Source: Mesorhizobium sp. B1-1-8 (lineage in GTDB: Bacteria; Pseudomonadota; Alphaproteobacteria; Rhizobiales; Rhizobiaceae). Taken from it: a stretch of DNA of 64,000 nucleotides. The notes under the pieces were generated by a model, which worked only from the letters and a program-made list of their open reading frames with translations, did no database searches and was not told the DNA's origin. The translations under genes were made by a program, and so were the position numbers. This document shows, in pieces, positions 11,612 through 59,821 of the stretch (positions within the stretch are counted from its first letter, which is position 1; every line of letters starts with the position of its first letter). The DNA lies in NCBI RefSeq assembly GCF_006442795.2, contig NZ_CP083956.1:3015501-3079500 (forward strand). Reading direction: 5' to 3'.

Positions 11612-13021
11612 TTACTCTGCCGCCTGCGCCTGCGCCGGCAGCCCCAGCCACGCCCTGCAATCGGCCAGCGCGCGCGAGGTGATGGCGTGCCGTTTTGCAA
11701 TAGTTTTGTCCTTGCCGCGCAGGCGCTTGCCTTCGGTCCTGGGTGCTTCGACCGGCGGGAACAGGCCGAAATTGACGTTCATCGGCTGGAAGGAGCGTTT
11801 GCCCGGCTCGTCGTCCGAAACGATGTGACCGCCGGTGATGTGGTTGAGCAGCGCGCCGAAGGCGGTCGTTAGCGGCGGCACCGCCGGCGCGTGGCCGAGC
11901 CGCTCGGCGGCGGCGAAGCGGCCGGCGAGCAGGCCGATCGCCGCGCTCTCGACATAGCCCTCGCAGCCGGTGATCTGGCCGGCAAAGCGCAGGCCGGGCC
12001 GGGCCTTGAGCTGCAGCGAGGCATCGAGCAGCGTCGGCGAGTTGATGTAGGTGTTGCGGTGCAGCCCGCCGAGGCGGGCGAACTCGGCCTTCTCCAGTCC
12101 CGGAATGGTGCGGAAGATGCGCACCTGCTCGGCATGCTTCAGCTTGGTCTGAAAACCGACCATGTTGTAGAGCGTGCCCAGCGCATTGTCCTGGCGCAAC
12201 TGGACGACGGCGTAGGCTTTCACCGCCGGATTGTGGACATTGGTCAGGCCCATCGGTTTCATCGGACCGTAACGCAGCGTCTCGACGCCGCGCTCGGCCA
12301 TCACCTCGATCGGCAGGCAGCCGTCGAAATAGGGCGTGCCTTCCCATTGCTTGAATTCGGTTTTCTGGCCTTCAACCAGCGCCTGGACGAAGGCAAAATA
12401 CTGCTCCTTGTCCATCGGGCAGTTGATATAGTCCTTGCCGGTGCCACCGGGTCCGACCTTGTCGTAACGCGACTGGAACCAGGCCGTGTTCATGTCGATC
12501 GTGTCGAAATGCACGATCGGCGCGATGGCGTCGAAGAAGGCGAGCGCATCGGCGCCTGTGGCTTCGGCGATCGACCGGGCAAGCGAAGGCGCGGTCAGCG
12601 GGCCGGTGGCGACGATCGCCTGATCCCAATCGGCCGGCGGCAGGCCGGGCACCTCCTCGCGCTGAATGGTGATCAGCGGGTGCGCCTCGATCTTCCTGGT
12701 CACCGCTTCGGAAAAGCCGTCGCGGTCGACGGCAAGCGCGCCGCCGGCCGGAACCTGGTTGGCATCGCCGGCGCTCATGATCAAGGAGCCGGCGAGCCGC
12801 ATTTCGGCATGCAGCAGGCCAACGGCGTTGTTTTCTGCATCGTCGGAGCGGAAGGAGTTGGAGCAGACGAGCTCGGCCAAACCGTCGGTCTTGTGCGCAT
12901 CGGTGCCGCGCAGCGGGCGCATTTCATGCAGCACGACCGGGACGCCGGCTTCAGCAATTTGCCATGCGGCTTCGGAGCCGGCGAGGCCGCCGCCGATGAC
13001 GTGTATGGGATTTTTGCTCAT
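11612..13021 (-). CDS. trmFO: Methylenetetrahydrofolate-tRNA-(uracil-5-)-methyltransferase TrmFO
   Basis: A 469-residue flavoenzyme that methylates U54 in the tRNA T-loop, using methylene-THF and FAD. The FAD-binding motif [14 protein letters not shown] lies at residues about 7-20. The segment [11 protein letters not shown] and the later NCPMDKEQY carry the two family cysteines. The start at 13021 ([12 protein letters not shown]) fits the family; the frame is open 22 codons further to 13087, without homology. A DUF1851-like gene follows closely. Confidence 0.95.
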
Positions 13022-13102: not shown

Positions 13103-13222
13103 AAAACAACAACACCCGCCGGGGGAGGAGATCCGGCGGGTGTCGTTTTGGTGGCCGATCTTCGGGAGGAGGTGAAGATCGACCGTATCCGTCATCGCCG
13201 GGGAGGAGGTCGGCTTTGACGA
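13103..13222 (-). ncRNA. Anti-Shine-Dalgarno hairpin sRNA, copy B (alpha-r14/NfeR1 or cuckoo type)
   Basis: Read on the minus strand, this about 120-base unit folds into three successive hairpins. Hairpin 1 (13191-13220) and hairpin 2 (13153-13183) have the loop acctcctccc. Hairpin 3 (13113-13142) has a perfect 10-bp GC stem, the loop atctcctccc, and a T-rich tail ttgttgtttt, so it works as a terminator. CCUCCUCCC loops are the mark of alpha-r14 RNAs of rhizobia (NfeR1) and of the cuckoo RNAs of Rhodobacter. The unit is a diverged copy of the one at 13263-13378. The 5' end is approximate. Confidence 0.8.
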
Positions 13223-13262
13223 AATTTCTTTTCGCTTAGAAGACGAACTGCGTTCGCTTCGG

Positions 13263-13378
13263 AAACAACGCCCGCCGGGGGAGGAGGTCCGGCGGGCGCC
13301 GTTTTTATGGTCAACCCTCGGGAGGAGGTGAAGGTTGACCGTATCCGTCAGGGTCGGGGAGGAGGTCGACCCTGGCGA
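13263..13378 (-). ncRNA. Anti-Shine-Dalgarno hairpin sRNA, copy A (alpha-r14/NfeR1 or cuckoo type)
   Basis: Three hairpins on the minus strand, each showing cctcctccc in the loop. Hairpin 1 is 13349-13374 with a perfect 8-bp stem cagggtcg/cgaccctg. Hairpin 2 is 13309-13340 with arms ggtcaacc/ggttgacc. Hairpin 3 is 13270-13297 with a 9-bp stem gcccgccgg/ccggcgggc and the tail gttgttt, a terminator. It begins about 10 bases after the stop of the DUF1127 gene, so it could be processed from that mRNA's 3' UTR, as described for DUF1127-linked CcsR RNAs of Rhodobacter, or have its own promoter. Confidence 0.82.
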
Positions 13379-13388
13379 AATCGCTTGG

Positions 13389-13529
13389 TTAGATCGCCTT
13401 GCGGGCGACCATCTTGATCTCGTCGCGAACGATGCCGAGATCATGGAGCTGGCGGTTCGAAAGCCGACCCAGCTCGGAAACCGTGTCGCGATAAACGCGC
13501 CAGTTACGGTAGCTGCGGATCAGGTTCAT
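13389..13529 (-). CDS. DUF1127 small protein
   Basis: A 46-residue basic protein, too short for many gene callers, reading MNLIRSYRNWRVYRDT at its start and ending EIKMVARKAI. The YRNWR, ELGRLSNRQLHDLG and terminal Arg-rich parts are the DUF1127 signature. Members in Agrobacterium and Rhodobacter act in RNA turnover, phosphate and stress responses; CcaF1 of Rhodobacter binds RNA and affects maturation of adjacent sRNAs. The same arrangement is seen here: the sRNA pair starts just after this stop. It is a paralogue of the next gene. Confidence 0.9.
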   Translation of the reverse strand: MNLIRSYRNWRVYRDTVSELGRLSNRQLHDLGIVRDEIKMVARKAI

Positions 13530-13579
13530 GTCGTTACTCTCTTCAAAACTGGTTCGGACCATTTGCGGCCCGAAGCGGA

Positions 13580-13720
13580 TTAGATCGCCTTGCGGGCGAC
13601 GTAGTGGATGTCGTGGCGGCTGATGCCGAGATCGGTCAGCTCACGGTTCGACAGGCGGCTCAGCTCGGAAACAGTTTCCCGGTAGCGGCGCCAGTTGCGG
13701 TAGTTGCGGATCAGGTTCAT
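13580..13720 (-). CDS. DUF1127 small protein, paralogue
   Basis: A 46-residue protein starting MNLIRNYRNWRRYRET and ending HDIHYVARKAI, about three quarters identical to the DUF1127 protein 50 bases downstream. The two genes look like a tandem duplication and probably share a promoter upstream of 13720. With the two sRNA copies behind them this gives a 2+2 locus on the minus strand. Confidence 0.9.
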   Translation of the reverse strand: MNLIRNYRNWRRYRETVSELSRLSNRELTDLGISRHDIHYVARKAI

Positions 13721-13947
13721 GGTAGTGCTCGTTTCGTCTTTTCATTCCGTTTGTGTACGAACGGAAAATAGGCAGGGTCATATCGATTTAAAAGTGCCAT
13801 TGGCGCATGGCAGCAATGCAAATTGTGCATTGCAGCATTAATGGCCGGTCGCGCCTGCGACACAAATAAGGCCGAATCGGAAAATGCCGTTGCGTCAATG
13901 GCTTGCCGGTAGTGGCCGAAAAAGCACCAGGCTCCTAGGGGAAGGAT

Positions 13948-15072
13948 ATGGCGAGCTACGCGACACGGGTGAGGGCCGATATCGCCCGATGGCGGGACGC
14001 AGGCCTGATCGATGCATCGACAGCCGCGGCGCTGACTGGCGATGTTGCCGCCCACGAGCGCGCCTCATTAAGCTTCGGCTCGATACTGGCGATGATGGCC
14101 GCCCTTTTGTTCGGCGCCGCGATCCTGATCTTCGTCGCCTCCAACTGGGACGCCATTCCGCGTCTGGTGCGGGTGGCGGCACTCTTTGCCGCCATCCTTG
14201 CCGGCTATGTCGGCGGCGCGGTGCTGAAGACGCGCGACCACGCCGCGATCGGCGAGGCGCTGTGGATCATTGCCGCCGCTGCGTTCGGCGGATCGATCGC
14301 GCTCATCGGCCAGATGTATCACCTGTCGGGCGACGAGGCGTCGGCGCTGGTCACCTGGGGCGCCGGCACGGCGCTGGCGGCGGTGGCGCTGCGCTCGAAC
14401 CCGCTGACCGTCGCTGCCGTCGGCATCGCCGATGCGTGGCTGTTTCTCAACGGGAGCGAATTTTACTGGCATCCAGGTTTTCCGGATTTCTTCATTGTCG
14501 CGGCCATCGTTTTATTCGTCGCTTCGTTCTGGACGCAAAGCCAGGCCGCGCGCCACCTGATCATCCTGTCGATTGTCTTCTATCTTTTCATGCGCGCTAT
14601 CGATCACGACCACGAGACGCTGCGGATCGCCATTCCGCTGGTCATCGTTTCTGCGTTGGTGTTCGCGGCCTCGGTCTTTGCAGGCGATCCGATCGACAAG
14701 GTCCTTCAGCTAGGTGGGCGGCTACCCTTGCATGCCTTGTTTGGCTTTCTTACCGGTCTGGCCATGGTCCAGTTCGAACTGGCGGACGGGAATACCTACA
14801 ATGGCGGCTTTGCCATTGCCTCGATCGTCGCCTTGGCCGGCATCGTGGCGGCCATCATGCTGGCGGGGCGCGAGAGCCGGGGGCTGCGCTGGCTGGCCTA
14901 TGCCGGCTTCGCCTTCGAGCTTGCCATCATCTACAGCGTCACCCTGCAATCCATGCTCGATACAGCGGGCTTCTTCCTGGCGGCGGCCGTGCTGCTCGGC
15001 ATATTGGCGCTGGCCATTATCCGCATTGAAAAGCGCATGAGGATGCCTGCCGGGACAGGAGCAACGACATGA
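13948..15072 (+). CDS. DUF2157 domain membrane protein
   Basis: A 374-residue integral membrane protein. The N-terminal soluble part (RVRADIARWRDAGLIDASTA) and the following first spans match the DUF2157 domain. About ten hydrophobic segments follow. Function is unknown. Its stop overlaps the start of the GDYXXLXY gene by four bases (atga), a pairing that is common in proteobacteria, so the two likely form a membrane-periplasm unit. The upstream gap 13721-13947 holds no gene and must carry promoters for both directions. Confidence 0.85.
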   Translation: MASYATRVRADIARWRDAGLIDASTAAALTGDVAAHERASLSFGSILAMMAALLFGAAILIFVASNWDAIPRLVRVAALFAAILAGYVGGAVLKTRDHAAIGEALWIIAAAAFGGSIALIGQMYHLSGDEASALVTWGAGTALAAVALRSNPLTVAAVGIADAWLFLNGSEFYWHPGFPDFFIVAAIVLFVASFWTQSQAARHLIILSIVFYLFMRAIDHDHETLRIAIPLVIVSALVFAASVFAGDPIDKVLQLGGRLPLHALFGFLTGLAMVQFELADGNTYNGGFAIASIVALAGIVAAIMLAGRESRGLRWLAYAGFAFELAIIYSVTLQSMLDTAGFFLAAAVLLGILALAIIRIEKRMRMPAGTGATT

Positions 15073-59161: not shown

Positions 59162-59821
59162 ATGAATGGTTTCGCTGCTCAGTTTATTGCCGCATTCGCG
59201 ACAACCGTGGGCCTTGCTCTTGTCAGTGGATGCCTGGGTACAACGATCGGACTGTTTCTGGCGATTTCGAAGGGCGCGGCCATGCCCCGCCTCAAGCGTG
59301 CTGTGACGGCCTACACGACGATGGTCCGTGGCGTTCCAGAACTTCTGATTATCCTGCTCATCTACTTCGGCGGAACCACCTTGGCCAGCAAGGTCGCCGG
59401 CCGATACGTGGAGGTGAATGCGTTCACGGCCGGGGTCATCGCGCTCTCGGTCGTCTTCAGCGGTTATGCGACGGAGGTCTTCCGGGGCGCGATCGCGGCA
59501 GTGCCGGCGGGCCAGACCGAGGCGGCGAAATCCCTTGGGTTGAATGCATGGCAGCGTTGGGTGTTCGTCGTTGGCCCGCAGATGCTGAGGCTGGCGCTGC
59601 CCGCCTACGGCAACCTGTGGATTTCGCTGTTCAAGGACACCGCGCTGGTTTCGGTCGTCGGCCTCACCGACATCATGCGTGTTGCCTATGTCGGCGCCGG
59701 GTCGCTGCGCGCACCGCTGACCTTCTACCTCTCGGCGTCGGCTCTCTATCTCTCCCTGACGACGGTCACGCTGCTGTCGATCCGTTTGGCGGAGCGGCGC
59801 TTCCCCGCGTTCGGTCGATAG
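59162..59821 (+). CDS. Polar amino acid/opine ABC transporter permease (HisQ-type)
   Basis: A 219-residue inner membrane permease with five spans. The EAA loop reads AVPAGQTEAAKSLGLNAWQR, which docks an ATPase in HisMQ-type importers, and TMVRGVPELLIILLIYFGG is the family start. ATG at 59162 is preferred over 59078, whose extension has no homology. Twelve bases separate it from the second permease. No ATPase gene accompanies it. Confidence 0.92.
   Translation: MNGFAAQFIAAFATTVGLALVSGCLGTTIGLFLAISKGAAMPRLKRAVTAYTTMVRGVPELLIILLIYFGGTTLASKVAGRYVEVNAFTAGVIALSVVFSGYATEVFRGAIAAVPAGQTEAAKSLGLNAWQRWVFVVGPQMLRLALPAYGNLWISLFKDTALVSVVGLTDIMRVAYVGAGSLRAPLTFYLSASALYLSLTTVTLLSIRLAERRFPAFGR

Follow-up and report, generated by a model that had tools for sequence, protein, structure and literature searches.

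In the window, i.e., the 64-kb stretch of DNA analysed here in full, the minus strand carries two short DUF1127 genes followed directly by two alpha-r14 RNAs, all of them behind a conserved LsrB/VtlR-type promoter box, and the same genome encodes an LsrB ortholog. We consider it reasonably likely that this is a CIN1-type operon of DUF1127 genes and cuckoo RNAs, which would be transcribed under the control of LsrB as a single precursor and then processed. The redox-responsive LysR regulator LsrB/VtlR would activate one promoter upstream of DUF1127-A, and the resulting precursor would comprise DUF1127-A, DUF1127-B, alpha-r14 copy 1, and copy 2, and end at the last hairpin. A ribonuclease, possibly RNase E by analogy with Rhodobacter, would release the alpha-r14 RNAs, whose exposed CCUCCUCCC loops may pair with the Shine-Dalgarno sequences of target mRNAs and lower their translation. 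By analogy with NfeR1, transporters and nitrogen regulation are candidate targets, and the DUF1127 proteins may aid maturation, stability, or action of the RNAs, like CcaF1. The features of the locus are listed in Table 1.

Table 1. Features of the locus and its surroundings, in minus-strand order from the 25-bp element to trmFO, preceded by the divergent upstream gene.
Feature	Position in window	Strand	Evidence
DUF2157 gene, divergent, upstream of the unit	13948-15072	+	
25-bp promoter element TGCACAATTTGCATTGCTGCCATGC	13805..13829	-	includes LsrB/VtlR consensus GCAT-N3-TG-N3-T at 13819-13807
Probable core promoter CTTTTA-N17-CTATTT (inferred)	13766..13794	-	conserved in genus alignment
DUF1127-A, 46 aa, first gene of the unit	13580..13720	-	ORF; PF06568 E 6.9e-16, 58.1 bits
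DUF1127-B, 46 aa, second gene, 50 nt after A	13389..13529	-	ORF; PF06568 E 7.6e-15, 54.8 bits
alpha-r14 copy 1, three hairpins, each loop CCTCCTCCC	13263..13384	-	RF02344 99.1 bits; fold; covariation
alpha-r14 copy 2, three hairpins, loops CCTCCTCCC, CCTCCTCCC, TCTCCTCCC	13107..13228	-	RF02344 89.0 bits; T-rich tail
trmFO, next gene downstream of the RNAs	11612..13021	-	PF01134 GIDA E 3.6e-99

Both DUF1127 proteins scored above the PF06568 threshold of 23.3 bits, and both RNA units exceeded the gathering score of ar14 (RF02344; 58.8 bits) in a covariance-model search. A first-pass annotation, made from the sequence alone, had described RNAs behind DUF1127 genes with both protein and RNA duplicated, and the two PF06568 and two ar14 matches in line bear this out. 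Its assignment of the RNAs also held: judged by sequence, they are of the alpha-r14/cuckoo type. CcsR1 (RF02791) was rejected as the family, with 37.8 and 35.9 bits lying under its cut-off of 65.3, and ar7, 6C, and CrfA each scored under their cut-offs as well. The six minus-strand hairpins with anti-Shine-Dalgarno loops described there were recovered, and they display the three-hairpin trait of ar14 with CCUCCUCCC unpaired, one loop of the six reading TCTCCTCCC (13123-13131). The loop CCTCCTCCC is exact in the other five (13357-13365, 13320-13328, 13279-13287, 13201-13209, and 13164-13172), which leaves just one further occurrence among the six in the window; by chance, 0.58 occurrences would be expected in the entire window, and none of 100 shuffles of the window reached six. 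The 292-nt stretch folded into six hairpins with 10-nt loops and one small spacer hairpin, with a folding energy far below that of 200 shuffles (z = -11).

An ar14 match (E <= 0.01) was present in 34 of 41 genomes of the relatives sample, and ar14 was found in the genome under study and all 24 congeners (G000-G024). The best ar14 locus per genome consisted of a DUF1127-A/B pair followed by RNA in 23 of these 25 genus genomes, with a gap of 45-54 nt between A and B in all 23. In the remaining two, the best locus was solo (L038 of G013 and L046 of G024); G013 holds two ar14 matches at another place, with the 25-mer of the promoter nearby. The genus clusters carry two to four ar14 matches. For covariation analysis, 45 operon copies (44 distinct) were picked by a loop-spacing rule, which missed some copies and took none from L042. 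The three-hairpin structure was well preserved in this set: pairing held in 94.6% of cells, and double changes occurred at 10 pairs. The covariation score of 0.245 compared with 0.147 after shuffling, was reached in 0 of 500 shuffles, and collapsed when the alignment was slid by one column. A contrary measure was the number of further pair types, which at 21 fell under the shuffled mean of 23.3; in hairpin 1, two pairs were broken in 23 of 44 copies. The persistence of hairpins and loops in related genomes, on which the first-pass annotation had made its reading depend, was thus observed, with loops nearly constant across the genus copies and stems covarying.

This pattern also argues against a role in which the hairpins mainly stabilise the 3' end of the DUF1127 mRNA or act as a decoy for it, instead of working as trans-acting sRNAs. 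Although the 3' region of a short mRNA is exactly where the hairpins sit, homologues exist as solo genes in many cases, and the homologue NfeR1 acts in trans via the same loops (PMC10746234); we regard such a role as very improbable. The three redundant loops of NfeR1 pair to the ribosome-binding region of mRNAs, including ntrB, and silence them (PMC10746234). The loops found here are the same, which suggests the same mode of action.

The LsrB-type promoter element, which the first-pass annotation did not mention, appears to us as the more interesting part of the locus. Its 25-mer was found with up to two mismatches in 93 of 99 genus genomes, as a single copy in each except G007 (two), and a reversed-pattern control gave zero matches in the genus genomes. 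Among 23 aligned genus promoters, which have TGCATTGCACAATTTGCATTGCTGCCATGC in common with few changes, the 25-mer was exact in 20. The consensus GCAT-N3-TG-N3-T begins 99-109 nt ahead of the ATG of DUF1127-A in these promoters and is the published LsrB/VtlR box consensus (PMC7486931, PMC8844928); the genus element further resembles the Brucella VtlR motif CAATGCAGCCATGCA (PMC12595884). All 23 genus loci have the box upstream of DUF1127-A, compared with 1.22 expected from dinucleotide shuffles. The putative core promoter comes close to a consensus for alphaproteobacteria that is given in PMC8844928. Assuming that transcription starts 6-7 nt past CTATTT, the box would lie at about -60 to -48, and the box of the abcR1 promoter is reported at -61 to -49 (PMC8844928). 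The strong conservation of this site points to LsrB as the switch that turns on the entire unit.

An LsrB ortholog is present. Over 241 aa, it matches 9HH1, the structure of A. tumefaciens LsrB, with E 2.2e-108, and its gene adjoins a thioredoxin-reductase gene (TIGR01292 above cut-off), with an ar15 (AbcR) RNA downstream. AbcR genes also come after lsrB in Agrobacterium and Sinorhizobium (PMC7486931). Co-occurrence of LsrB with the locus is uninformative, since 141 of 150 genomes of the order have a close homologue. Regarding published targets, NfeR1, an alpha-r14 RNA, is activated by LsrB (PMC10746234), and in Brucella three DUF1127 genes are under the control of VtlR (PMC12595884).

Beyond the genus, ar14 (E <= 1e-4) was detected in 40 of 150 genomes sampled across the order. 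Counting each locus once, a same-strand DUF1127 gene ended within 700 nt upstream in 28 of 52 non-genus loci, and none did in the other 24. Named genomes were searched separately for three consecutive CCTCCTCCC, which gave at least 120 stretches, of which the 80 loci listed were analysed. We take the matches listed to comprise 61 Hyphomicrobiales, 13 Rhodobacterales, three other alphaproteobacteria, and three others (Streptomyces, an actinobacterium, and a myxobacterium). Among the matches listed, DUF1127 lay within 900 nt upstream in 16 of 58 evaluable Hyphomicrobiales loci (three more lay too close to the end of the locus), 12 of 13 Rhodobacterales loci, all three loci of other alphaproteobacteria, and none of the other three. 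At some of the non-genus loci, DUF1127-RNA units are repeated in arrays. One such array belongs to another family, in a genome of 2.3 Mb (L047:864-2530), where four successive DUF1127-RNA units lie ahead of trmFO, each with a similar upstream element and with hairpin-like sequence after each DUF1127; CCTCCTCC is found in three of the four.

The box extends to these loci as well. Of 29 non-genus loci that have DUF1127 on the same strand, 20 carry the box ahead of that gene (1.82 expected from dinucleotide shuffles); without L128, in which DUF1127 is downstream of the RNA, the figures are 19 of 28. Of the 20 boxes, 18 lie 122-161 nt ahead of the DUF1127 match. Among the matches listed, the box was present in 12 of 16 DUF1127-linked Hyphomicrobiales loci, some of which are from the same genus (1.02 expected), and in 23 of 42 solo Hyphomicrobiales loci (2.27 expected); it was absent from the one solo Rhodobacterales locus, three ambiguous loci, and three non-alphaproteobacterial loci. 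It started 106-127 nt ahead of the DUF1127 match in 11 of the 12 linked Hyphomicrobiales hits listed, and at 34 nt in the last one. The box was missing from 9 of the 29 non-genus loci and 4 of the 16 linked Hyphomicrobiales loci among the matches listed. These excesses are not to be read as probabilities because the counted loci are related by descent. Nor is the consensus alone specific: 5 of 12 linked Rhodobacterales loci among the matches listed show a loose form (1.06 expected; 71-243 nt from the DUF1127 match, none within 106-127), although LsrB is reportedly restricted to Rhizobiales (PMC11975290).

The loose Rhodobacterales matches would also fit an operon that is real and mainly driven by another factor, such as an RpoH-type stress sigma factor or another LysR regulator, with the 25-mer being no LsrB site. 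In Rhodobacter, an RpoHI/RpoHII promoter precedes the operon (PMC10253847), and PMC8844928 gives a consensus for S. meliloti RpoH1 that CTTTTA-N16-CCTATTT at our locus resembles. However, the element matches the LsrB site of abcR1 in both sequence and position and is close to the Brucella VtlR motif, and the same consensus precedes many of the solo Hyphomicrobiales loci counted above. We consider another main driver quite unlikely and retain LsrB as the probable activator.

In the genome under study, the exact consensus was found upstream of 2 of 14 DUF1127 matches (L007 and L014), and a relaxed form at L009 and L016. L009, L014, and L016 are small DUF1127 or DUF1127-like genes with a box variant about 106-146 nt upstream, and CCTCCTCC is absent from these loci. 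The exact Brucella motif was tried as a means of defining the regulon, but a scan of the same genome with up to three mismatches gave 280 places versus 35 for the reversed control, which is too loose for this purpose. One of the 280 lies in the window at 59545-59559.

The layout between the DUF1127 genes and the end of the RNAs bears on whether the unit is one transcript. The copy 1 match begins 4 nt past the stop of DUF1127-B, and this spacing is 2-20 nt in all 23 genus loci with the gene pair. A conserved LsrB-type promoter between tandem alpha-r14 copies was rejected: none of 30 stretches scanned behind third hairpins contains the box, a few of these stretches lying beyond the last copy. 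Together, the short spacing and the lack of boxes make LsrB promoters of the RNAs' own unlikely. A run of at least four T follows 18 of 22 last copies in the genus clusters versus 1 of 24 non-last copies; this count covers copies found by pattern in 22 of 23 clusters (none in L042, some missed elsewhere), and the L028 and L030 entries, two of the 22, are not the true last copy, which the pattern missed. The first-pass annotation had assigned a T-rich tail to each unit; it is present after the second unit (TTGTTGTTTT) and not after the first, which is followed by TTGTTTCC. A terminator scan called no minus-strand terminator at either unit with its loop range of 3-8, the loops here having 10 nt. 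Spacing and tails are what one precursor with a terminal terminator would look like, as in ccaF1-CcsR. In that Rhodobacter system, ccaF1 and CcsR arise from a common transcript that is then processed, with both RNase E and CcaF1 taking part (PMC10253847). GGAGG was found within 20 nt upstream of the start in none of the 23 DUF1127-A and none of the 23 DUF1127-B genes of the genus loci, and the unit may therefore escape its own RNAs.

Each alpha-r14 copy could instead be an sRNA gene in its own right with a separate promoter, as NfeR1 is, in a DUF1127 neighbourhood that is merely ancestral. The same genome does contain solo alpha-r14 genes (L003 and L004), the exact LsrB consensus stands 64-70 nt ahead of the RNA match in 6 of the 23 solo loci of the genus, and the 24 non-genus loci without an upstream DUF1127 gene point in the same direction. 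Against this, the spacing behind DUF1127-B leaves room for a promoter chiefly inside the DUF1127-B frame, no box follows the third hairpins, and inner copies hardly ever have a T-run. An E. coli-type promoter scan called nothing in the region; it does not decide on promoters of the RNAs, since it also missed the core promoter proposed here. In our judgement, independent genes are unlikely, and a single precursor from the DUF1127-A promoter is the preferred reading. Regarding the solo genes, a second type was noted in the genus (L004, L051, L054, L056, L058, L061, L065, and L070), which lacks an LsrB-type box and has a common upstream element resembling GCATCAAAACGTCGCATTT. The gene ahead of this type has an end that we take for that of a phasin.

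Compared with known systems, the locus combines features of several. Like the ar14 prototype NfeR1 (Smr14C2) of Sinorhizobium meliloti, the RNAs pass the family cut-off and have three anti-Shine-Dalgarno hairpins and an LsrB-type promoter box; unlike NfeR1, which is described with its own sigma-70 promoter and a conserved upstream motif, they form two copies that follow a pair of DUF1127 genes, with scant space for a promoter ahead of copy 1. The likeness to Rhodobacter ccaF1-CcsR (PMC10253847) that the first-pass annotation had drawn is sound. As with CcsR1-4/ccaF1 of Rhodobacter sphaeroides (RF02791), a short DUF1127 gene is followed by several CCUCCUCCC hairpin RNAs, probably on a single precursor. 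The present locus differs in having three hairpins per unit, two DUF1127 genes, scores under the CcsR1 cut-off, and an LsrB-type box in place of the RpoHI/RpoHII promoter. The locus appears to be a member of the CIN1 locus/cuckoo family, in which a short same-strand DUF1127 gene likewise lies directly upstream of CCUCCUCCC hairpin RNAs. The link of alpha-r14 RNAs to DUF1127 genes, presented as new in the first-pass annotation, was already in print: the association of DUF1127 with CcsR-like sRNAs has been published as the "CIN1 locus" (PMC10253847), and the CIN1 locus/cuckoo RNA family is credited by citing papers to Reinkensmeier & Giegerich 2015. A paper of 2011 had proposed one family for the Sinorhizobium CCUCCUCCC hairpin RNAs and called Rhodobacter RS0680a a shorter version of them (PMC3927594).

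The VtlR/LsrB regulon, as far as the reports consulted cover it, includes Brucella DUF1127 genes and abcR2, Agrobacterium abcR1, atu1667, and vrsA, and Sinorhizobium abcR1 and nfeR1. Our locus shares with it the published box at about the same promoter distance and an lsrB ortholog in the genome; in contrast, DUF1127 genes and alpha-r14 RNAs appear in those reports as targets in different species and not as one operon. Our literature search returned no report uniting LsrB, DUF1127, and alpha-r14, and an LsrB/VtlR-type promoter of a DUF1127-alpha-r14 unit was not found in print; its coverage stopped short of Reinkensmeier & Giegerich 2015 and of a 2021 paper on LsrB/VtlR and Agrobacterium sRNAs, where prior mention is possible.

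Control of sRNAs and DUF1127 genes by LsrB/VtlR, NfeR1-type RNAs in symbiosis, and the disputed role of DUF1127 have been largely separate lines of work. Since protein and RNA lie together in a unit that an LsrB-type box precedes, a single locus of a plant symbiont would allow tests of LsrB control, of processing, and of partner function. The function of DUF1127 is disputed: CcaF1 binds RNA, the Agrobacterium protein contacts PhoR, and RNA binding was not seen for Salmonella YjiS (PMC12501420). With one DUF1127 protein working by protein contact and another lacking RNA binding, an RNA role of DUF1127-A/B is no more than a possibility. Interaction with Hfq is stated for AbcR1/2, "unlike NfeR1" (PMC8844928), which leaves room for a non-Hfq partner of alpha-r14 RNAs, and our guess for this partner is a DUF1127 protein. 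We offer as a tentative possibility that DUF1127 proteins are processing or annealing partners of rhizobial alpha-r14 RNAs, that LsrB co-produces both from one promoter, and that the proteins serve solo copies in trans. If so, LsrB, DUF1127, and cuckoo RNAs would form an order-wide redox-responsive module of translation control, which in some families would even have an alpha-r14-like RNA adjoining lsrB.

The downstream gene trmFO is a frequent neighbour, probably outside the regulatory unit. Its motif was absent downstream of the RNAs in 3 of 23 genus loci (one of which ends 202 nt past the RNA), and lay within 800 nt in 17 and at 810-861 nt in three more.

Regarding the surroundings of lsrB in other genomes, alpha-r14-like RNAs with CUCC-rich loops were noted on the same strand downstream of lsrB in L277 (G030), L279 (G079), and L280 (G078), with gaps of 133, 394, and 305 nt, respectively. 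The gap is 1173-3376 nt in L278, L281, and L282, and an LsrB-type box lies ahead of at least one alpha-r14-like RNA in five of these six loci.
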